A DNA stretch of 64,000 nt, from contig NZ_KB889963.1 in assembly GCF_000372845.1 (NCBI RefSeq), positions 806,001 to 870,000 on the forward strand, written 5' to 3'. Position numbers and translations under genes: made by a program. The DNA comes from Methylocystis rosea SV97 (lineage in GTDB: Bacteria; Pseudomonadota; Alphaproteobacteria; Rhizobiales; Beijerinckiaceae). The notes beneath the pieces are model-generated. The model worked only from the letters and a program-made list of their open reading frames with translations, did not search any database and was not told where the DNA came from. This document shows, piece after piece, positions 44,051-55,794 of this stretch. Numbering within the stretch: position 1 is the first letter of the stretch; every line of letters starts with the position of its first letter.

Positions 44051-45556
44051 TTAAATTTCAGCGGATAATTCGACTTGCAGGCCTTCGGCGCGATACGAGA
44101 GCCTGACGTCTCCGCCCATCTGGCGCGCGAGCACATTGGTGATCAGGAAATGCCCGACTCCGGTTTGCTCCGGGTGTTCGACCTTTGGCCCCCCCGTCTC
44201 CGTCCAATTCAAGATGAGACGTGGACGATCTTCTTCGCGATCGATACGCCAGCTGATCGCTATCCGACCGTCGTCGTCTGAGAGCGCTCCGTGCTGCTCG
44301 GCGTTGGCAAGCAGTTCGTTGATGGTCAGACCCAAGGCGGAGGCGACCGCGGAGCGCAATTCCACGTCTTCGCCCGACAGTGAGATACGCTCGGCGTAGT
44401 CGTGGCTGCCACAAGACAGCGCGATCATGAGCAGGTCTCTGAGCGGCGTTCGTTCCCAGGAGGTCTGCACGAGCAGCGTGGAGATGCGGCTCAGACACTG
44501 GACGCGGTGGGAGAAGCCTTGCTGAAAGCTCGAAAAGTCCTGCGCCGTGCGCGCGGTGATATTGGCGATTCCCTGGATCATCGCGAGCGAATTGTTCACC
44601 CGGTGATGCAGCTCGCGGTTCATCATCTGATTGTGCATCTCCGCGTTTTTGATCTCGTCGACGTCGGTGATGGCGACGATCGCGCCGATAACGGCCCCCT
44701 TGTCGTCGCGGATCGGCGCGCCGACGATGTTGATCCAGACGTAGGCGCCGTCGCCGCGCTCGATCTTGCACTCGAGCTGCGGATGGTTCTCCCCAGCAAG
44801 GGCGCGCGCGAGCGGGTATTCCTCATTCGCGACCGGGTGGCCGTCCTGATGAATGGCGTTCCATTTGGAATAGGCTTGCGTGCTTTCCGAGTAGCGAACA
44901 GGGCGACGGAAGATCGCTTCAATGACGTGATTGCCCTCGACGATTCGTCCGCTCGGGGCTTCGGCGATGATGATTCCGACCGGCACGGCGTCAAGCAGCG
45001 CGCGCAGTTGCAGATTCGCCCCCGCGCGGCTGACGATCGACGAGCTTTTCATCAGTAGATCGTTCAGCTCGGACAGCCTCTTGCGCTTTTCGCGCAGGCG
45101 CTCGTCCATGTCCTGAAGGCTATGCGCGATCGCATCGACCTCAGGAACGCCGGTGTCGCTCCAATGCGAGGCGCCGCGCGCTTCCACGGCCAGACTCAAT
45201 TCGGCGAGTTCATGTTGCGCCCTTTGCGTCTCCCCGCGCTGCCTCACCAGTAAAAAAATCACGGCGATCGTCGTCGCCAGCGCGAGCGTGAGCGCGCCAA
45301 CGATCAGGCGCCAGACCTCGATCATGTTTGCCGCGCCTTCCGCGGCGCGGGCGGCAGACGTCATCGCCAGCAGGAACGCCAGCGCAGCGCGCGGCGCGGC
45401 GACCCCCGGCGCCCGCGGGTATGGTTTGGCCGTCGCCGACACGGGCGGCGACCGCCGGGCTGATCGACCGTTATGGCCTTCCGTCATTACGCTGCCAAAA
45501 TTTTCGGGACCCTGCCGGGCGTAACCGTCAGATAGCGCGAAATCTTGATCGCGCAT
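44051..45556 (-). CDS. HisKA_2/HWE-type sensor histidine kinase (candidate PhyR kinase)
   Basis: A roughly 500-residue membrane kinase. Two hydrophobic segments (about residues 50-70 and 80-105) are followed by a short coiled stretch, a PAS domain (about 190-310; DAVPVGIIIAEAPSGRIVEG) and a HisKA_2-type core. The phospho-His is in NRELHHRVNNSLAMIQGIA and the ATP-binding N box in TINELLANAEQHGAL. Kinases of this type next to ecfG phosphorylate PhyR in other alphaproteobacteria. Several starts are possible (TTG 45580 overlapping the ecfG stop, ATG 45556, ATG 45487); none has a strong ribosome site. Confidence 0.85.
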   Translation of the reverse strand: MRDQDFALSDGYARQGPENFGSVMTEGHNGRSARRSPPVSATAKPYPRAPGVAAPRAALAFLLAMTSAARAAEGAANMIEVWRLIVGALTLALATTIAVIFLLVRQRGETQRAQHELAELSLAVEARGASHWSDTGVPEVDAIAHSLQDMDERLREKRKRLSELNDLLMKSSSIVSRAGANLQLRALLDAVPVGIIIAEAPSGRIVEGNHVIEAIFRRPVRYSESTQAYSKWNAIHQDGHPVANEEYPLARALAGENHPQLECKIERGDGAYVWINIVGAPIRDDKGAVIGAIVAITDVDEIKNAEMHNQMMNRELHHRVNNSLAMIQGIANITARTAQDFSSFQQGFSHRVQCLSRISTLLVQTSWERTPLRDLLMIALSCGSHDYAERISLSGEDVELRSAVASALGLTINELLANAEQHGALSDDDGRIAISWRIDREEDRPRLILNWTETGGPKVEHPEQTGVGHFLITNVLARQMGGDVRLSYRAEGLQVELSAEI

Positions 45557-45576
45557 CCCACGCGAAGGCTTGGCTG

Positions 45577-46131
45577 TCAAACGGCGCGGGAGGGTCGCCG
45601 GGCCGCGAGGTCCGAGACGGTGGGATCGGTGTCGATGTCGCTCGTGTTGAGCAGGCCCAGATGCTGCGCAAGTTTGGCGCGGGCGCGATTCAACCGGCTC
45701 TTGACCGTGCCAATGGCCACGCCGCAGACCTCCGCCGCTTCGTCGTAGGAGAGTTCGGTGATCCCGATCAGCAGCAGAATTTCCTTGTGTTCGGGGGCAA
45801 GCTTATCAAGCGCCGCCTGAACGTCGGTCAGGGTGAGCGCCGACTCCTGGCCACCCTTCACGGGGATCTGCTGGGCCAGGAGATTGTCGCTGTCCTGAAC
45901 TTCGCGCGAGCGTTTCCGATAGCTCGAAAAATAAGTGTTGCGCAAAATGGTGACGAGCCAGGCGCGCAGATTGGTGTTTTGCTGAAAGGAATCGGCGTGC
46001 GACCAGGCTTTGACCAGAGTGTCCTGAACCAGGTCGTCGGCGAGGCTATGCGATCCGCACAGCGAAATGGCGAAGGCGCGCAGATAGGGCATCTGCGCCA
46101 CCATCTGATCTCCGAAGGCCTCGTAGCTCAT
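45577..46131 (-). CDS. ecfG: General stress response ECF sigma factor EcfG
   Basis: A 184-residue ECF sigma factor. Region 2 (RAFAISLCGSHSLADDLVQD, ANTNLRAWL-type segment) and region 4 (LLLIGITELSYDEAAEVCGV and TVKSRLNRAR) are both visible. EcfG directs RNA polymerase to GGAAC-N16/17-CGTT promoters and is held inactive by NepR. The ATG overlaps the nepR stop in an ATGA junction. A promoter with exactly this sequence precedes nepR, so autoregulation is expected. Confidence 0.93.
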   Translation of the reverse strand: MSYEAFGDQMVAQMPYLRAFAISLCGSHSLADDLVQDTLVKAWSHADSFQQNTNLRAWLVTILRNTYFSSYRKRSREVQDSDNLLAQQIPVKGGQESALTLTDVQAALDKLAPEHKEILLLIGITELSYDEAAEVCGVAIGTVKSRLNRARAKLAQHLGLLNTSDIDTDPTVSDLAARRPSRAV

Positions 46132-46406
46132 TTCTTTTCGCGCTGTTTGGCTTCCAGCTTGGCCAGCAGCACAGTGAATTTGTCAGGAATAGGTTGGTGG
46201 ATCAGATCGTCGCAATAGGCGCGAAAAACGCGCCCGAGCTGAGCTTGGACCTTCGGGTCCAGCGCAACGCCATCTGCTTGTGCCCCGTCAGCATCCTGGA
46301 AGCTGTCAGCATCAGCCTCCTCCGGACCACCAGTCTTATTGTTCAAGTTCGGTTCCGCGTCGCGGGAGGGGCCGTCGTTGTCGTGAGGATTTTCGCGTTG
46401 GCTCAT
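46128..46406 (-). CDS. nepR: Anti-sigma factor NepR
   Basis: A 92-residue acidic protein. The first 50 residues are polar and disordered; the last 40 contain the conserved NepR helices (VQAQLGRVFRAYCDDLIHQP, then IPDKFTVLLAKLE). NepR binds EcfG in unstressed cells and is captured by phosphorylated PhyR under stress. The ATG at 46406 is chosen for size; the frame is open much further upstream but that part would run through the promoter. It overlaps ecfG by four bases. Confidence 0.9.
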   Translation of the reverse strand: MSQRENPHDNDGPSRDAEPNLNNKTGGPEEADADSFQDADGAQADGVALDPKVQAQLGRVFRAYCDDLIHQPIPDKFTVLLAKLEAKQREKK

Positions 46407-46478
46407 TCTCGACCCCGAGTTCGCCCCGAGACTGGCCGCCTCTACCCGGGGCGGCCGAGCGACGACCTCCCTTGATGG

Positions 46479-46503
46479 AACGCGTAAGAACACTAATTGT
46501 TCC
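46479..46503 (-). promoter_or_regulatory. EcfG-type promoter of nepR-ecfG
   Basis: On the minus strand GGAAC, then exactly 16 bases, then CGTT, which is the consensus known for EcfG sigma factors. The CGTT lies 72 bases before the nepR ATG. The phyR side of the gap shows a GGAAC at 46518-46522 but no CGTT at correct spacing. Confidence 0.8.
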
Positions 46504-46583
46504 GTCATTGCAAGCAAGGAACACTGTGACATATCAGCGGGCGCTTGAATTGACTTGGGCGCTGGGCGGCATAGGATGAAACT

Positions 46584-47372
46584 ATGAACCTCTCCCGAGA
46601 AATTGCGGTGCACCTGCCTTACCTCCGCCGGTTTGCGAGGGCGCTTTGCGGCTCGCAAAAGAGCGGCGACGCTTATGTTGTCGCCACGCTCGAGGCGCTG
46701 GTGGTGGATCCGGATGCGTTTCCATCAAATATGTCGCCCAAGGTCGGGCTTTACCACCTCTTCATGACGTCCTGGTCGTCGATCCGGTTGAACACCGAAG
46801 CAGCGCCCGATGACGAGATATCCGCGGCACAGCGGAATATCAGCTTGCTGACGCCGCGGTCGCGACAGGCCTTTTTGCTGCGCACGGTCGAAGGGTTTTC
46901 GGTCGCTGACGCCGCCGCAATACTGGGCGCGACCGAAGAAGAGGTCGAAGCGCTGGTAACGGAGGCAGGCCGGGAAATCGCCGAACGCGTCGCGACGGAC
47001 GTGCTCATCATCGAGGATGAATCGCTCATTGCGCAGGACATCGAGTTCATCGCGCGCGATCTGGGCCATCGCATCATCGGCGTCGCCCGCACCCATCAAG
47101 AAGCCGTGGAACTCGCGGCGCGCAAGCGGCCGGGGTTGATTCTCGCGGACATTCAGCTTGCCGACGGCAGCTCTGGTCTGAACGCCGTCAACGAAATGCT
47201 CGAAAGTTTCGACGCGCCAGTGATTTTCATAACTGCATTTCCCGAACGCCTGCTGACCGGCGAGCGGCCCGAGCCGGCGTTTCTCATCAGCAAGCCCTAC
47301 AAGGTCGACACGGTCAAGGCGACGATCAGCCAGGCGCTGTTCTTCGAGCGCAAGGCGTCTCGCGCGGCCTAG
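46584..47372 (+). CDS. phyR: General stress response regulator PhyR
   Basis: A 262-residue partner-switching regulator. An N-terminal sigma-like domain (about residues 1-130; ISLLTPRSRQAFLLRTVEGF, AAILGATEEEVEALV) mimics EcfG but does not bind promoters. A C-terminal receiver follows, with acceptor Asp in LILADIQLADGSSG and the Lys in LISKPYK. When phosphorylated it binds NepR and frees EcfG. It is divergent from nepR-ecfG across 177 bases. AGGA precedes the ATG by seven bases. Confidence 0.95.
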   Translation: MNLSREIAVHLPYLRRFARALCGSQKSGDAYVVATLEALVVDPDAFPSNMSPKVGLYHLFMTSWSSIRLNTEAAPDDEISAAQRNISLLTPRSRQAFLLRTVEGFSVADAAAILGATEEEVEALVTEAGREIAERVATDVLIIEDESLIAQDIEFIARDLGHRIIGVARTHQEAVELAARKRPGLILADIQLADGSSGLNAVNEMLESFDAPVIFITAFPERLLTGERPEPAFLISKPYKVDTVKATISQALFFERKASRAA

Positions 47373-47551: not shown

Positions 47552-49372
47552 GTGAATAGTCAAGCTATAGCGGCAAACGTAGCTGCAGAGGCGGCGCGGC
47601 CTGCTCGAGCGCGTTGGCGGGAGTTCTGCGCGCTTGCTCTGGGATTCTGGGCCAGCGAGCCGAGCCGACGGGCATGGAGTCTGACGGGGTTAGTCGCCCT
47701 GTGCATCGCGCTGCAGCTTGGGGCGCAGCTCAGCATCAACGAATGGAACCGCAAGTTTTTCGACGCGCTCGAAAGCAAGAACGTCGAAGCGTTGAGTTGG
47801 GCGACGCTGCTGTTGCCCGCCCTCGTCGCGTTCAGCGGCCTCGCCATTAGCGGAACGCTTGTCGCGCGCATGACTTTGCAGATGCGCTGGCGAGAATGGC
47901 TCACTGAGAAACTCGCCGGCTGGTGGCTCGAGGACCAACGCTACTACCGTCTCGAGATCGCCGCAGCCGAGCAAACCTCGCCGGAATACCGGATCGCCAA
48001 GGACGTGCAACTTGCCGTCGAGCCGCTGGTGGAATTCGCCGTCGGCTTTTTGACGGCGCTGGCGACGGCATTGGCCTTCGTCGGGGTTCTATGGACCGTT
48101 GGCGGCGCGCTGGAGCTCAATCTGCTTGGCGCGCGCCTCGTGTTGCCGGGATATCTCGGCTTCGCCGCGGTGGTTTATGCGACGATCGCCGGCGGCCTCG
48201 CCTACTTCGCCGGCCGTCCGCTGGTTCCGGCCGTTGCGCAGAAGAATGAAGCTGAAGCGCAGTTCCTCTCTGAACTCACACGGCTGAAGGAAAACGCGGA
48301 AAGCATTGCGCTCATTCGCGGCGACGCAGACGAACTGAGTTCTGTCCTGCAGAACTATCGACGCGTCGTCACGGCCTGGATTCGCCAGATCCATCGCAAC
48401 GGGGTCATCGCCACCGTGCAGAGCGCCAATGGCGCGCTCGTGCCGCTAATTCCGCTCGTGCTCGTCGCGCCCAAATATCTCTCGGGCGCGCTCACGCTCG
48501 GCGCGGTCATGCAGCTTACCGCCGCCTTCGTCTCGGTACAGATCGCCTTCAACTGGTTCATCGACAATTCGGTGCGCGTCGCGGAGTGGATGGCCTCGGC
48601 CAACCGGGTCGACGAACTCGCAGAAGCGCTCGAGAGTTTGGATATCGCCGTCATCATGGAGGAGAAAGAGTTCATCGATTTCGGCGTCAGCGACGACGAC
48701 ACGATTCACCTAGAAGATCTCGCGGTCGCGCATCGCAATGGCCGAATCGTGATTGCTGGCGCGAACGTTGTCATTCCCAACGGCGAAAAGCTGCTGGTGG
48801 CGGGGCCGAGCGGCACGGGAAAGAGCACGCTTGTTCGCGCCCTCGCCGGGTTATGGCCGTGGGGCTCCGGGCGTATCCTCTTGCCTAAAGACGCCCACAT
48901 CGCCTTTGTGCCGCAGAAGCCGTACATCCCCTTGGGCACGCTTCGTCAGGCCATGCTCTATTCAATATCCGACAAGGACATCACCGACGACATGCTCGAA
49001 GGCGCGATGCGGCGATGCGGCCTGGGTTATCTCGTCAAGCATCTCGACGAAGAGCAGCGCTGGGACCAAACGCTTTCCGGCGGCGAGCGGCAGCGAACGG
49101 CTTTTGTTCGGCTCTTGCTGGAAAGGCCGCAGATCATCATCATGGATGAGGCGACGTCGGCGCTCGATGAAGAGAGTCAGGTTTCGATGCTGCGCCTGTT
49201 CAATGAAGATCTCGCCGGCGCGACGGTGATCAGCGTCGGCCATCGCGTTGGCATGGAAGATTTTCACGACAAGAAACTCGTTCTTGAGCGTCGCCCCGCC
49301 GGCGCGCATATTACGAGCCGTAAGCTGCAAAAATCCCTGTGGCACTTGTTCGACGACGCCGCGCTTCATTGA
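47552..49372 (+). CDS. SbmA/BacA-like ABC transporter (fused permease-ATPase)
   Basis: A 606-residue half-transporter with N-terminal membrane domain (six helices to about residue 350) of the SbmA/BacA/YddA type, including NPDQR-like region EDQRYYRLEIAAAEQTSPEY. The C-terminal ATPase follows, with Walker A GPSGTGKST, signature LSGGERQRTAF and Walker B IIIMDEATSALDE. BacA-related proteins import peptides and cobalamin and affect very-long-chain fatty acid lipid A in rhizobia. The start is GTG at 47552 with a weak ribosome site. It lies next to the stress locus but on its own. Confidence 0.9.
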   Translation: MNSQAIAANVAAEAARPARARWREFCALALGFWASEPSRRAWSLTGLVALCIALQLGAQLSINEWNRKFFDALESKNVEALSWATLLLPALVAFSGLAISGTLVARMTLQMRWREWLTEKLAGWWLEDQRYYRLEIAAAEQTSPEYRIAKDVQLAVEPLVEFAVGFLTALATALAFVGVLWTVGGALELNLLGARLVLPGYLGFAAVVYATIAGGLAYFAGRPLVPAVAQKNEAEAQFLSELTRLKENAESIALIRGDADELSSVLQNYRRVVTAWIRQIHRNGVIATVQSANGALVPLIPLVLVAPKYLSGALTLGAVMQLTAAFVSVQIAFNWFIDNSVRVAEWMASANRVDELAEALESLDIAVIMEEKEFIDFGVSDDDTIHLEDLAVAHRNGRIVIAGANVVIPNGEKLLVAGPSGTGKSTLVRALAGLWPWGSGRILLPKDAHIAFVPQKPYIPLGTLRQAMLYSISDKDITDDMLEGAMRRCGLGYLVKHLDEEQRWDQTLSGGERQRTAFVRLLLERPQIIIMDEATSALDEESQVSMLRLFNEDLAGATVISVGHRVGMEDFHDKKLVLERRPAGAHITSRKLQKSLWHLFDDAALH

Positions 49373-49385
49373 TTTGTTGGCGCTA

Positions 49386-49494
49386 GGGCAGGCTCCGAAA
49401 AAGTTGACAGGCTTTTTCGATGAGAACCTGCTCGAACATTTTGATGTTGAGCGATTCCCTACCGATCACCTGATTCCATGTGATCGGTAAAGCG
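49386..49494. repeat. Long dispersed repeat, copy 1 (inverted mate at 55676-55794)
   Basis: A roughly 110-base intergenic element containing GGCAGGCTCCGAAAAAGTTG, GATGAGAACCTGCTC, TGAGCGATTCC and CATGTGATCGGTAA in order. The reverse complement of 55676-55794 matches it along its length with scattered differences. Internal hairpins (AAAAAGTTGACAGGCTTTTT, ATCACCTGATTCCATGTGAT) suggest a mobile or transcribed palindromic element. Confidence 0.85.
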
Positions 49495-49568
49495 CGCCAG
49501 GCGTTCGCCGCGCATGTATCCTCAACTGTGCCCAACGATCCATATATCGGACTTCCCGAAGGACATAT

Positions 49569-49595
49569 CGTTTGCTCTGCGTCGATGAGCAAACG
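49569..49595. promoter_or_regulatory. Perfect inverted repeat upstream of the glycine-zipper gene
   Basis: CGTTTGCTC and GAGCAAACG, 9-base perfect arms with a 9-base spacer, 53 bases before the ATG of the repeat protein. It could be an operator, for example for the nearby LuxR-type regulator, or an mRNA hairpin. Confidence 0.45.
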
Positions 49596-49648
49596 CGACA
49601 TTGCATTTGAGCGGCGCAGATTTCTTTGACCCTTTGGGAGGATCAGAT

Positions 49649-50911
49649 ATGCAAATGGCTTACAACGGAGCAACGCCGTCGGTCGCGCCGATGGGCGTGA
49701 CCATGGATCAGATGTTTGCGCCGCAGGGCTTTATCGGCGGCGCGCTCGGCAGCGCGCTGGGCGGATTAGGCGGCGGCGCGATTGGCCGCGCCTTCGGCAA
49801 CCAGAATCTCGGTCGGCAGATCGGCAACATCGCGGGCGGCGTGCTTGGCGGCTTGCTGCCGTTTGAGGCCGGCCCGCAGGCCTACGCCGGGACCTATTAC
49901 GTCCCGCAAACGGCTGCGCCCGGCTTTGCGCCTCAGGGAATCGTCGGCGACGCGCTCGGCGCGATCGGGGCGCCGCTCGGCGGCTTCATCGGCGGCCGGT
50001 TCGGCAACGCCGGTCTCGGCCAGACGATCGGCGGCACGGTGGGCGGTCTTGCCCAGCGCTTCCTGCCGTTCGACGCCGGCCCGCAGCCCTACGCCGGGAC
50101 CTATTACGTCCCGCAGACGGCTGCGCCCGGCTTTGCGCCGCAGGGGATCGTCGGCGATGCGCTCGGCGCCATCGGTGCGCCGCTCGGCGGCTTCATTGGC
50201 GGCCGCTTCGGCAACGCCGGACTCGGCCAGACGATCGGCGGCACGGTGGGCGGTCTCGCTCAGCGTTTCCTGCCGTTCGACGCCGCGCCGCAGCAAGCCT
50301 ACGCCGGGACCTATTACGTCCCGCAGACGGCTGCGCCCGGCTTTGCGCCTCAGGGGATCGTCGGCGACGCGCTCGGCGCAATCGGCGCGCCGCTCGGCGG
50401 CTTCATTGGCGGCCGTTTCGGCAACGCCGGACTCGGCCAGACGATCGGCGGCACGGTGGGCGGTCTCGCTCAGCGCTTTCTGCCGTTCGAGGCGGAGCCG
50501 GTTTTCGTTCCGCAGGGCTTCATCGGCGATGCGCTCGGCGCGGTCGGGGGCCGGGTTGGCAACTGGATCGGCGGACGCTTCGGCAACGCCGGCGCTGGCC
50601 AGACGGTTGGCAATGTGGTGGGCGGACTTGCCCAGCGCTTCCTGCCGTTCGAAGCTGGCCCACAGGCTGGAACTTATTATGTCCCCCAGACGGCTGCGCC
50701 TGTGTTTGCGCCGCAGGGCATCGTCGGCGATGCGCTTGGCGCGATCGGCGCGCCGCTCGGCGGTTTCATCGGCGGGCGCTTCGGCAATGCGGGACTCGGT
50801 CAGACGATCGGCGGCACGGTGGGCGGACTGGCCCAGCGCTTCCTGCCCTTCGACGCCGCGCCGCAGCCCGTCTACTACGTGCCGCAGATGCAGGCGCCGA
50901 TGTACGGCTGA
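49649..50911 (+). CDS. Six-repeat glycine-zipper protein, unknown function
   Basis: A 420-residue low-complexity protein of unknown role. Six units of 54-70 residues start with F(A/V)PQG at nucleotides 49715, 49925, 50132, 50342, 50504 and 50705. Each has a Gly-rich amphipathic core (GDALGAIGAPLGGFIGGRFG, then GLGQTIGGTVGGL) and ends with RFLPF(D/E)A. Most are joined by a YAGTYYVPQTAAPG-type linker, missing after unit 4. Units 2, 3, 4 and 6 are nearly identical in DNA, showing recent duplication. GxxxG spacing suggests membrane-active helices, as in bacteriocins, but there is no signal peptide. GGGAGGA precedes the ATG at 49649. A small protein and a subtilase follow on the same strand. Confidence 0.85.
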   Translation: MQMAYNGATPSVAPMGVTMDQMFAPQGFIGGALGSALGGLGGGAIGRAFGNQNLGRQIGNIAGGVLGGLLPFEAGPQAYAGTYYVPQTAAPGFAPQGIVGDALGAIGAPLGGFIGGRFGNAGLGQTIGGTVGGLAQRFLPFDAGPQPYAGTYYVPQTAAPGFAPQGIVGDALGAIGAPLGGFIGGRFGNAGLGQTIGGTVGGLAQRFLPFDAAPQQAYAGTYYVPQTAAPGFAPQGIVGDALGAIGAPLGGFIGGRFGNAGLGQTIGGTVGGLAQRFLPFEAEPVFVPQGFIGDALGAVGGRVGNWIGGRFGNAGAGQTVGNVVGGLAQRFLPFEAGPQAGTYYVPQTAAPVFAPQGIVGDALGAIGAPLGGFIGGRFGNAGLGQTIGGTVGGLAQRFLPFDAAPQPVYYVPQMQAPMYG

Positions 50912-50960
50912 CGTCTGAGCGACGCAATCGACGCGGCGCATGAAGGATGATCTGCTGCCG

Positions 50961-50988
50961 CTTCCGGGCCGATTCATCGGCCCGGAAG
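50961..50988. repeat. Perfect hairpin between the repeat protein and the small protein genes
   Basis: CTTCCGGGCCGAT and ATCGGCCCGGAAG form 13-base perfect arms around TC. There is no T-run, so it is more likely an mRNA-processing, stability or partial-termination element that sets the output of the upstream gene relative to the downstream ones (inference). Confidence 0.7.
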
Positions 50989-51015
50989 CCCTCAAGAGAT
51001 CAGGATCGCGAAATC

Positions 51016-51261
51016 ATGAGCGCAACGAACGGCATCGATCAATTTCTGGTGGCGCCCCGCAACGCGGCGAGCACAGGGGATTTGGCCGCTTTCGAACAGG
51101 CGATGCAGTCTGTTCCCGGCGCCGCAATTCTTCAGCGCGCCGGCAAGGCTGGTCAACCAAGGCTGGTCGTCGCTTTGCCTGCGGCGAGCGCAAGTCACTT
51201 GCGCGAACAATTTGGCGCGACCCTGATCATCGAACCAAACGCTCCGCTGAAACCATTTTAG
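51016..51261 (+). CDS. Small propeptide/inhibitor-I9-like protein
   Basis: An 81-residue soluble protein (MSATNGIDQFLVAPRN ...). The pattern strand (QFLVAPR), helix (DLAAFEQAMQSV), strand (AAILQRAG), strand (RLVVALP), helix (ASASHLREQFG), strand (TLIIEPNAPL) matches the ferredoxin-like fold of subtilase propeptides and I9 inhibitors. This is judged from pattern only. It lies 61 bases before a subtilase gene whose own N-terminus has a similar unit, so it may be a separate chaperone or inhibitor of that protease. Confidence 0.65.
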   Translation: MSATNGIDQFLVAPRNAASTGDLAAFEQAMQSVPGAAILQRAGKAGQPRLVVALPAASASHLREQFGATLIIEPNAPLKPF

Positions 51262-51322
51262 CGCCGGCGCGCGTCCTTCATGGCGATGCGCAGGCTGGCC
51301 CGAATTTATTAGGAGAGTCGAA

Positions 51323-53131
51323 ATGGCTGGTCCCGACAATAGTACTCCTGCGCCGAATGGCCACAACCCAGAGCCGTCCCCGCCGTCAGCAAATGGCGCT
51401 GAAGCGCGGGTCGAGCCGATGGCGATAGCCCCCACCGAGCGCTTCATGATCGCCTCGCGGCGCGTGCCAGGATTCGCGCCTGCTTCCGCCATGGATCTGG
51501 CCAATGCGCTCCCCGACGTAAAGATTGTGCGGCGGATTCAGCCGCGCGGGCTCACCGCTTTTTCCGCTGGCGGTTCCTCTTCGCAGTCGCCGGAAATTCT
51601 CGTCGCCGAGATGGACCCTGGGCGCGGCGCAGCGCTGCAGGCCTCGGCGCCGCCCAACGTCATCGTGGAGCGCGACGCCTTTCTACGCGCCTCGGACGAC
51701 TTCCGTCCTTTCGACTTCAACGGAGCCATGCCGATTGCGGCGGGCGTCGGAGTCGACGTGCAGCTGCGCGTCGTCGGCGCTGGTGGCAAGCCGCTGCCCA
51801 AGGCCACCGTCTATGTCTATGGCCAGGGCTTTCCGGGCCAAGGCGTCACGAATGAGCGCGGCGAAGTCGTCGTGACCGTGTTCGGCGGTCCGATCGAGAC
51901 CATCCAGGCGATTTACGTCAAACCTGCCGCCGATCATTGGGATCGTATGCTCCGCGGGCCAGCGCTTCAGGCCGGCGCCGTGAACACGGTGCAATTGCGT
52001 CCGCTGACCGAACGCTTCAACGGCTTTCCTCAAAACGGCATGATTGGCTGGGGCCAGCGGCTCATGAAGCTCGACCGGCTCGATCCTTCATTCACCGGCG
52101 CCGGCGTCAAGATCGGCATCATCGATTCAGGTTGCGACAGCGCGCACCCGCAATTGCGCCATGTGACGCGGGGCGCCGATCTCACCAATGGCGGCGACAA
52201 GACGAGTTGGTCGAACGATCAAATCGGCCATGGAACGCATTGCGCCGGAATCATTACGGCCGCCTCCGATGGCGTCGCCGGCATTCGCGGCTTTGCGCCG
52301 AGGGCGGAAGTTCACGCGCTGAAAGTATTTCCCGGCGGACGGTTCAGCGATCTTATCGACGCGCTCGACGAATGCATCGAACGGCAGCTCGACGTCGTCA
52401 ATATGAGCCTTGGCAGCGGCGATCCTTCCGAACTCGTCGCCCAGAAAATCGCCGAAGCGCGCCAGAGCGGCGTCGCCTGCATCGTCGCCGCCGGAAACTC
52501 CAGCGGACCCGTGCAATTTCCCGGCATGCTGCCGACGGTGCTGACGGTCGCCGCGATGGGCAAACTCGACGAGTTTCCTTCTGACAGCTACCATGCTCAG
52601 ACCGTCGTTCCGCAACTTGTCGCGGGGACGATGTTCTCGCCGAAATTCACGTGCTTTGGGCCGCAGATCACTGTCGCGGCGCCTGGCGTTGCAATTGTCT
52701 CCACTGTGCCTGGCGGGGGCTATGCGGCGTGGGACGGCACCTCGATGGCGACGCCTCACGTCACCGGCATGGCGGCGCTGCTTCTCGCGCACCATGCGCT
52801 CCTCGCTGGGGCGCGGACGGCGCGCAATGAGCAACGCGTCGCGCAACTCTTCTCGTTGTTGGCCGCGTCGGGCGTCCGCTATCTCGGCGACTCCACGCGC
52901 GAAGGAGCCGGCGCGCCGGATTTTGAGCGCACGCCCAGTCTCGCCGCGGCTCAGCCTTTGGGCGCGACTGCGCCGGCGAACGCGGGACTGGCGCCCGCGC
53001 GCGTGATGATCGACGGATTTGCTCCGCTGAGCGCGCCAGCGCCTTGGGCCGTCGATCCTGCGATGATGCAAAGGGTCAATCCAGCGATCATCCAGCGCAT
53101 GATGCAGTTGCGGGCCGCGGGACTTATTTAG
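51323..53131 (+). CDS. S8 family (subtilisin-like) serine protease without signal peptide
   Basis: A 602-residue subtilase. The catalytic triad is Asp268 (GIIDSGCDSAHPQL), His303 (GHGTHCAGI) and Ser474 (GTSMATPHVTG), with the oxyanion Asn in VAAGNSSG. The N-terminal 30 residues are Pro/Asn-rich and polar; about 35-125 looks propeptide-like (RFMIASRRVPGFAP ... VIVERDAFL). About 135-205 is an Ig-like or carboxypeptidase-regulatory sandwich (KPLPKATVYVYGQG). No signal peptide or anchor is visible, so it acts in the cytoplasm or leaves by an unusual route. GGAGAG precedes the ATG. Its 3' end overlaps the convergent LuxR gene by 8 bases. Confidence 0.9.
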   Translation: MAGPDNSTPAPNGHNPEPSPPSANGAEARVEPMAIAPTERFMIASRRVPGFAPASAMDLANALPDVKIVRRIQPRGLTAFSAGGSSSQSPEILVAEMDPGRGAALQASAPPNVIVERDAFLRASDDFRPFDFNGAMPIAAGVGVDVQLRVVGAGGKPLPKATVYVYGQGFPGQGVTNERGEVVVTVFGGPIETIQAIYVKPAADHWDRMLRGPALQAGAVNTVQLRPLTERFNGFPQNGMIGWGQRLMKLDRLDPSFTGAGVKIGIIDSGCDSAHPQLRHVTRGADLTNGGDKTSWSNDQIGHGTHCAGIITAASDGVAGIRGFAPRAEVHALKVFPGGRFSDLIDALDECIERQLDVVNMSLGSGDPSELVAQKIAEARQSGVACIVAAGNSSGPVQFPGMLPTVLTVAAMGKLDEFPSDSYHAQTVVPQLVAGTMFSPKFTCFGPQITVAAPGVAIVSTVPGGGYAAWDGTSMATPHVTGMAALLLAHHALLAGARTARNEQRVAQLFSLLAASGVRYLGDSTREGAGAPDFERTPSLAAAQPLGATAPANAGLAPARVMIDGFAPLSAPAPWAVDPAMMQRVNPAIIQRMMQLRAAGLI

Positions 53132-53897
53132 TCGCAAGCACGAGCGGTCCCCGATTGATCGGCGAATGAAGCGCTTCTCCGTCATGTGCGGGGGAGCGCT
53201 TTCGCATCGAGTGCGCCGCTTCGCCACGGCCGCGCACTTGCAGCTTCTGCAGAACATTGTGCACGTGATTCTTCACCGTGCCGAGTTCGATGCGTAACCG
53301 ACGGGCGATCTCCTTATTGGGCAGCCCGCGCTCGATCAGTTCAAGTATTTCCCGCTCGCGCGCGGTAAGCGCGTCCTCTGCGTCCGCGCCGGACGAGAGC
53401 GCCTCCTTGCCGATAGGCCGACGCTCGTCGACGGGATGAATCGCGGGCGCCGCTGTCAATCGTGCGAGCAGTTCGACAACGTCTTCAATTGACCCTTCGC
53501 GAGGAATGACGCCGACGATCGATGGACAGGCGGCCGCCAATGCTGGGCTAGCCGACGCCGGCGCGCCGATGGCGACGATTCGCAAATCGGGATGCTGCGC
53601 AGCGAGACCTTGCGCGATCGCAAGGCCTTCCAACTCGCCGACGTCGAGCAGAGCAATATCAGGTTCCAAATCAGCCGCTACCGCCAGCGCGGCGTCACAC
53701 TCGACGACGCCGACGACGGACATTCCCTCGTGCTGCCCAAGACGCAAGCCAAGCGCCTCGCTGAACAGGCGCATGTCGCTGACGATCAAGATGCGCGCGT
53801 TTCGCGGCGGATTTGCCGATCTAGGAACAAACGCGCTCTGCGCTGACAGACCGGGGTCCAGGGCGGAATCGTCTCGGAAGGCCGCAAACCGAGGCAT
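53124..53897 (-). CDS. NarL/LuxR-type response regulator
   Basis: A 257-residue regulator. A receiver-like domain (about residues 34-155; ARILIVSDMRLFSEALGLRL) has a likely acceptor Asp in DIALLDVGELEG. The C-terminal LuxR helix-turn-helix is clear (LTAREREILELIERGLPNKE, then VKNHVHNVLQKL). The first acidic pocket residues are replaced (IVSDM), so phosphorylation is uncertain. No cognate kinase is adjacent. It converges on the subtilase gene and may control that locus. Confidence 0.9.
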   Translation of the reverse strand: MPRFAAFRDDSALDPGLSAQSAFVPRSANPPRNARILIVSDMRLFSEALGLRLGQHEGMSVVGVVECDAALAVAADLEPDIALLDVGELEGLAIAQGLAAQHPDLRIVAIGAPASASPALAAACPSIVGVIPREGSIEDVVELLARLTAAPAIHPVDERRPIGKEALSSGADAEDALTAREREILELIERGLPNKEIARRLRIELGTVKNHVHNVLQKLQVRGRGEAAHSMRKRSPAHDGEALHSPINRGPLVLATK

Positions 53898-55672: not shown

Positions 55673-55675
55673 AGC

Positions 55676-55794
55676 GCTTACCGATCACATGGAGTCGTGT
55701 GATCGATAGGAATCGCTCAAAAGCAAAATGGTTGGAGCAGGTTCTCATCGAAAAAGTCTGTCAACTTTTTCGGAACCTGCTCTAGGCGCGGTCG
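55676..55794. repeat. Long dispersed repeat, copy 2 (inverted mate of 49386-49494)
   Basis: Contains GCTTACCGATCACATGGAG, GGAATCGCTCA, GAGCAGGTTCTCATCG and CAACTTTTTCGGAACCTGCT in order, the reverse complement of copy 1. It sits just after the isoaspartyl peptidase stop. Confidence 0.85.

Follow-up and report, generated by a model that had tools for sequence, protein, structure and literature searches.

Why should a subtilisin-like (S8) protease with no visible leader be encoded beside a polyprotein of repeated glycine-zipper units and a small separate protein? This question is raised by a locus of Methylocystis rosea SV97 (assembly GCF_000372845.1, genome size 3.9 Mb), located in the 64,000 nucleotides of contig NZ_KB889963.1 from position 806,001 to 870,000, hereafter the window, to which coordinates refer unless another locus is named. 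The three genes lie on the + strand and span less than 3.5 kb. A first reading of the window (hereafter the original prediction) had described a repeat gene, an 81-residue protein, an S8 gene, an intergenic hairpin and a regulator, and this layout is confirmed. Pfam and NCBIfam recognise just the protease and the regulator among the four genes, while the small protein and the window polyprotein belong to no family recognised by Pfam, NCBIfam, PADLOC or PHROG. Here we show that the trio is a conserved module, that the small protein is homologous to the N-terminal domain of the protease, and that its C-terminal tail resembles the unit ends of the polyprotein. We slightly favour the view that the module is a peptide precursor system gated by its protease, on which a propeptide-like protein, split off from the enzyme, acts as a brake in trans.

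A conserved three-gene module

A search of 101 relatives detected the small protein in 12 genomes of the Methylocystis genus, with one further match elsewhere at chance level; a separate search with the repeat protein arrived at the same 12 genomes. The order of polyprotein, small protein, protease and convergent regulator is the same in all 12 carriers, although contig ends cut some flanks and the polyprotein of one locus (L057) is incomplete. Named genome contigs scanned for the repeat unit gave 14 loci, made up of the Methylocystis genus, four Bradyrhizobium contigs and an alphaproteobacterial metagenome-assembled genome (MAG); all three genes are present in the MAG and in three of the four Bradyrhizobium loci, the fourth contig ending inside the polyprotein. 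A 34% match to the small protein in genome G040 was taken as chance, with two stops in the matched frame and unrelated genes around it.

Repeat-unit matches in a sample of the phylum (4 of 398 genomes, that of the window included) led to the families f36, to which Bradyrhizobium may belong, and f114. At E <= 1e-80, a profile of the protease detects it in 39 of 195 genomes and 11 of 44 genera of f114, and in 7 of 198 genomes and 5 of 47 genera of f36. Usable stretches were examined for 37 of the 40 places in f114 and 6 of the 7 in f36, and the order polyprotein, small protein, S8 protease is found in 34 of the 37 long f114 loci and in five of the six f36 loci. Over the 59 loci examined, the small protein is present in 55 and a glycine-zipper polyprotein lies upstream in 52; one of the four loci lacking the small protein (L138) is cut by a contig end. 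The co-occurrence of the three families in other genomes, with their gene order, had been proposed as a check of the original prediction and comes out strongly in its favour across Methylocystis, Bradyrhizobium, the MAG, f114 and f36. That the three genes work together can be considered close to certain.

In more distant S8 relatives of the order (L045, L063-L067) the catalytic domain is present, and no glycine-zipper gene lies upstream in the parts read. Beside some of these proteases, small genes are found after rather than before the protease (L045:1982-2419, L067:7260-7562 and L066:5694-6269), possibly coding for further separate propeptide-like proteins. Locus L166 carries a more distant protease of this kind, with a different repeat protein upstream (made of ATDEAAAAGMDLPTYLAVLQNHEQHQ units), and repeat proteins may accompany such S8 proteases more widely than in this module alone. 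Carriage of the module on phages, plasmids or viral contigs is rejected, as no relative of the polyprotein was found on any of them and none of the small protein on plasmids, where alone it was searched; IMG/VR gave no S8 relative, and none of 16 pattern matches in it was confirmed. Two Streptomyces plasmid records hold a 37-38% S8 relative. On one of them a Gln/Gly-rich protein of 195 residues with one hydrophobic helical segment (L171:5135-5722) is encoded upstream of the 37% relative, and no separate small protein was seen there by eye.

The small protein as a copy of the protease N-terminal domain

The original prediction of an S8 protease with an intact triad and no signal peptide is borne out. 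PF00082 matches with E=2.4e-41 (142.4 bits against a cut-off of 21.8); D268, H303, N392 and S474, taken as the triad plus the oxyanion Asn, are invariant among six relatives; and no signal peptide is visible, as judged by eye. The protease is built of an N-terminal domain like the small protein, a middle beta-type domain with a weak CarboxypepD_reg match, the S8 catalytic domain and a low-complexity tail. Ratios of nonsynonymous to synonymous substitution rates between genomes are 0.08-0.10 for the protease (three pairs) and 0.08-0.35 for the small protein (four pairs).

Profile alignment with HHalign of 49 small proteins against the N-terminal domain of 50 proteases gives 98.7% (E 2.7e-16), as opposed to 0.4% in a control against the middle domain. 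By homology, the small protein therefore appears to be a propeptide-like copy of the N-terminal domain of the adjacent subtilase. The two copies differ at one register: a Phe stands at residue 8 after a conserved acidic residue (Glu) in 44 of 55 small proteins, which come from 12 of 17 genus labels, whereas none of the 56 aligned internal N-terminal domains has Phe, Tyr or Trp there, three more lacking the motif. This Phe is the last residue in the glycine-zipper forms of the Methylocystis genus and Bradyrhizobium (...EPNAPLKPF, ...ERNAKLSPF), and in f114 it is usually followed by a short tail (...EPDRPLSLFD). The LKPF tail of the small protein resembles the unit end FLPF of the polyprotein, just as LSLFD in f114 resembles the ISLFDSEP ends of a second type of core (type 2). 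This likeness can be read as substrate mimicry, which would place the cut after Phe at the unit ends. The small protein probably acts on the protease in trans.

Unit boundaries and the proposed release of peptides

All six F(A/V)PQG units of the original prediction are found in the window polyprotein. Their cores contain 49 GxxxG motifs, whereas shuffling these residues gives 25.3 +/- 3.5, none of 2000 shuffles reaching 49. Four of the units (2, 3, 4 and 6) are identical in protein sequence and differ pairwise at 7-17 of about 42 synonymous sites and at 0 of about 106 nonsynonymous sites; as recent copying would have erased the synonymous changes, selection seems to hold every unit to the same peptide. 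Polyproteins of the Methylocystis genus have between 5 and 9 units, and that of L086 has as many as 11.

Most polyproteins examined have a glycine-zipper unit as their core. In L165, L168 and L169 this core is swapped for a different hydrophobic stretch (e.g. GFDFGSILSTVAQGAAQALPGLLMGLLSS), still preceded by xPQG or similar, and in L093 and L094 one glycine-zipper unit is followed by seven and six copies, respectively, of a third unit, FWSVLKKIGQGVQTGVNIGHQLGVF, which is helix-like and amphipathic, with a hydrophobic moment above that of 99.6% of shuffles. Common to these unrelated cores is the unit end, consisting of Phe, a small or acidic residue and a Pro two or three residues further on. 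LPF-type ends number 216 in 47 of the 49 glycine-zipper polyproteins, 203 of them with a Pro 3-5 residues after the Phe. In the five polyproteins with other or mixed cores, F-[DEGSN]-x(2,3)-P occurs 5-8 times each against 0.65-1.02 in shuffles, and every one of the five exceeds all 1000 shuffles; a number of these sites fall within units or close to the N-terminus and need not be boundaries. Cleavage at the YVPQT/FAPQG linkers, as originally suggested, is disfavoured because the linkers differ between lineages; it is the unit end that persists when the core is unrelated and that the small protein mimics.

The gap between the polyprotein and the small protein holds the perfect 13-bp hairpin of the original prediction, starting 49 bases past the polyprotein stop codon, with a 2-nt loop when read by eye and 13 pairs with a wider loop when computed. 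Its stem is kept in all 12 Methylocystis-genus sequences, three stem pairs having changed on both sides and none being broken. Hairpins of different sequence recur in the same gap in other lineages, the longest stem exceeding that of more than 95% of mononucleotide shuffles in 40 of 51 loci. Directly after the window hairpin CCTCAAGAGATC stands in place of the T-run of an intrinsic terminator, and T-rich stretches follow the hairpin in a few f114 loci. Given that no T-run follows in the window, a plain terminator is less likely than a processing, stabilising or partial-stop element by which the amount of substrate relative to protease is set.

The favoured mechanism would combine these parts as follows. 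The polyprotein would supply 5-11 copies of a hydrophobic glycine-zipper peptide of ~50 residues with Pro/Gln/Tyr linkers between them, and the protease, having no leader, would remain cytoplasmic. It would recognise the unit ends and cut after the Phe of ...(L/F)-(L/I)-P-F-(D/E/G/S/N)-x-x-P; that it cuts the polyprotein at the unit ends is, in our view, somewhat probable. The small protein, as a split-off copy of the propeptide-like domain, would bind the protease in trans, its (P)-L-x-x-F tail occupying the substrate groove as a cleaved unit end would and holding the enzyme off, and it might also aid folding of the protease. The hairpin would probably allow far more substrate to be made than inhibitor and protease. 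Once a trigger removed the small protein, many copies of a membrane-active peptide would be freed at once, with self-poration under stress, the killing of neighbours or assembly as possible purposes. We consider the chances about even that released peptides act on membranes.

Several findings weigh against this mechanism. Locus L161 lacks the small protein beside its polyprotein and protease (it also has no LPF-type end, a single case), and none was detected in L128 or L166. The protease is rare in the phylum-wide sample, occurring in only 4 of 388 genomes, which makes the module patchy. The register Phe is absent from 11 of 55 small proteins (Leu in four, one residue short in three, Ser in two, Met and Gln in one each). 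In L163 the three unit ends are SPF, LPL and IPA, with only one PF, though its small protein ends in LSLFD, and type 2 polyproteins have further F-x-x-x-P sites, some inside units. The GxxxG excess becomes modest once each lineage is represented by one core, with shuffle fractions of 0.009 to 0.055 in five lineages. Finally, the I9-like nature ascribed to the small protein is not confirmed by sequence: Pfam I9 (PF05922) matches 0 of 45 small proteins, and comparison with one subtilisin BPN' propeptide is no better than with shuffles, for which reasons the small protein is not filed under I9. PF05922 was detected in none of 152 genomes from the class, and a search of solved structures with the small-protein profile gave weak, unrelated matches only (best E 0.012). 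Counted by eye, the spacing from Glu to Phe is the same as the distance between Glu and the final Tyr in the BPN' propeptide, direct comparison staying at shuffle level. The original prediction is thus sustained as to co-occurrence and as to a link between small protein and protease, where control of the enzyme is suggested by the homology and the fixed C-terminal Phe, and fails as to I9 membership by sequence, with cleavage at the linkers not favoured.

Other explanations can account for part of these data. The polyprotein could function without being cut, as a structural protein that is secreted, sits at the surface or forms condensates, with the protease as its partner or remodelling enzyme, as might be suggested by the low-complexity Pro/Gln/Gly composition and long Gln runs of f114 polyproteins and by the aggregation of glycine-zipper proteins such as Cdz on the cell surface, as described in PMC5380434. 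Of 49 polyproteins, 36 end in His, and of 37 f114 proteases (loci L132-L166 and L170), 33 end in Trp, perhaps as docking or assembly signals. We consider such a role unlikely, given that the boundary motif outlives replacement of the core, that the small-protein tail resembles this motif, and that units are freely gained and lost, as in the Methylocystis genus. It is also improbable that the units serve as exported, bacteriocin-like killers of neighbouring cells, whether the protease works ahead of export or after it. The glycine-zipper and amphipathic cores would fit such a role, for which Cdz (PMC5380434) is a precedent, and an SbmA/BacA-like ATP-binding cassette (ABC) transporter with a fused ATPase (47552-49372 in the window) lies upstream of the module in several genomes of the Methylocystis genus. 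However, the module has no leader, and no exporter, type I secretion or immunity gene is consistently linked to it among open reading frames of at least 90 residues in the fetched stretches. This transporter is absent beside the module in L060 and L061 and is for that reason rejected as a core part; other ABC-type ATPases near seven loci vary in position and strand. The f114 module, moreover, lies downstream of the housekeeping genes earP or efp in several genera (g296, g328, g336 and g362).

The same position of several f114 loci beside housekeeping genes rather than in defence islands argues against an anti-phage or cell-suicide module, in which loss of the brake would let the protease free pore-forming peptides into the cell's own membrane, as protease-activated pores do. 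This too is unlikely, although all three parts look cytoplasmic, the logic resembles that of bacterial gasdermins, and the protease gives generic subtilase and IetS matches in PADLOC (and generic protease matches in PHROG). The small protein and the polyprotein match no PADLOC model, so that membership in an anti-phage system known to it is not supported, and neither has a plasmid, phage or IMG/VR relative where searched. Least likely of all appears a small protein that is mainly a folding chaperone in trans, its tail resembling the unit ends as a by-product of a shared groove. Subtilase propeptides are generally known both to fold and to inhibit their enzymes (see the abstract of PMC6993865), and f114 tails often extend beyond the register Phe; yet the protease retains its own homologous N-terminal domain, which should be enough for folding and which has no Phe at the register. 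A braked precursor-processing system remains the reading that we prefer to these alternatives.

Related systems and genomic setting

Known systems each seem to share one part of the logic of this module. In Plasmodium, SUB1-ProM is encoded by a separate gene adjoining subtilase genes, and its propeptide-like product inhibits the protease in trans (abstract of PMC6993865). As here, a stand-alone protein resembles the propeptide of the neighbouring subtilase; in contrast, the organism is a eukaryotic parasite, the fold is modelled and the abstract's account includes no repeat-polyprotein gene. Intracellular subtilisins are leaderless bacterial proteases blocked by a propeptide motif with Pro and Phe/Tyr, LIPY/F, which in the abstract of PMC6220982 sits in a short N-terminal extension in cis, as opposed to a whole domain in trans. 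The Cdz bacteriocins of Caulobacter are, like the units described here, membrane-active or candidate membrane-active glycine-zipper proteins of an alphaproteobacterium (PMC5380434); the multi-unit polyprotein, the S8 protease and the lack of a linked exporter set the module apart from the Cdz type.

On the side of the enzyme, the NCBIfam model closest to the catalytic domain is that of the type VII secretion mycosins (TIGR03921), at 116.6 bits against a cut-off of 278.75 and with no type VII context here. Cyanobactin PatA/PatG and kexin-processed repeat precursors are cases in which an S8-type protease frees several peptides from one precursor. These involve leader-dependent, modified short peptides or processing in the secretory pathway, and the cyanobactin maturation protease model (TIGR03895) gives the window protease 41.4 bits, far below its cut-off of 421.05.

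No description of the three-gene combination was found among the matches listed in the open-licence literature, most subscription papers lying outside its coverage, and novelty is claimed with respect to this literature and the family libraries. Tentatively, and with more doubt than belief, the module might be an undescribed bacterial weapon or self-destruct device, in which a latent cytoplasmic protease, under the lock of a propeptide that has become a gene of its own, releases numerous membrane-disrupting peptides together from a multi-unit precursor, and in which the peptide core is exchanged between lineages while the cutting and locking parts are kept. If so, it would be a portable lock-and-release cassette with substrate, lock and cutter adjacent, a cut motif readable from sequence, and a frame in which evolution has tried different peptide cores. 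It would also make the trans action of a subtilase propeptide directly testable in bacteria, give the small protein and the window polyprotein a function, and offer a signature, S8 protease plus small protein, by which new membrane-active peptides could be found.

Features of the locus, in window coordinates
Feature	Position	Strand	Remarks
Repeat polyprotein gene	49649..50911	+	420 aa, six glycine-zipper units; no Pfam/NCBIfam family above cut-off
Unit 1	49715..49864	+	FAPQG...LLPF, divergent first unit; end computed from unit length
Unit 2	49925..50071	+	FAPQG...FLPF
Unit 3	50132..50278	+	protein sequence as unit 2
Unit 4	50342..50488	+	protein sequence as unit 2
Unit 5	50504..50650	+	FVPQG variant
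Unit 6	50705..50851	+	protein sequence as unit 2
Hairpin between polyprotein and small-protein genes	50961..50988	+	13-bp arms, without T-run
Small propeptide-like protein gene	51016..51261	+	81 aa, C-terminus EPNAPLKPF; homologous to protease N-terminal domain
Leaderless S8 protease gene	51323..53131	+	602 aa, PF00082
LuxR/NarL-type regulator gene, convergent	53124..53897	-	PF00196 GerE

The ATG of the polyprotein is preceded by GGGAGG and is a more likely start than a TTG at 49601, which was listed mechanically by open reading frame calling. The LuxR-type regulator converging on the protease is also as originally predicted; it matches GerE, with a receiver domain slightly below the Pfam cut-off, and the 3' ends of the two genes overlap by 8 bases. 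A NarL/LuxR-type regulator converges on the protease in the alphaproteobacteria tested (the Methylocystis genus, Bradyrhizobium, g129 and g378) and is probably an accessory, confined to alphaproteobacteria. No gene other than the trio is common to all lineages among open reading frames of at least 90 residues in the fetched stretches (one gene-calling rule, E 1e-10). Five loci, from four genera of f114, have a PAS-type protein nearby.

Just upstream of the module (44051-47372) lie genes of the general stress response, coding for a histidine kinase (by reading), an extracytoplasmic function (ECF) sigma factor and PhyR (by Pfam), and this neighbourhood recurs in several relatives. The module region is flanked by two copies, in opposite orientations, of an interspersed repeat of ~110 bp with a palindromic end (49383-49498 and 55674-55785), which has 41 matches in its own genome and looks like an element of the miniature inverted-repeat transposable element (MITE) or repetitive extragenic palindrome (REP) type.

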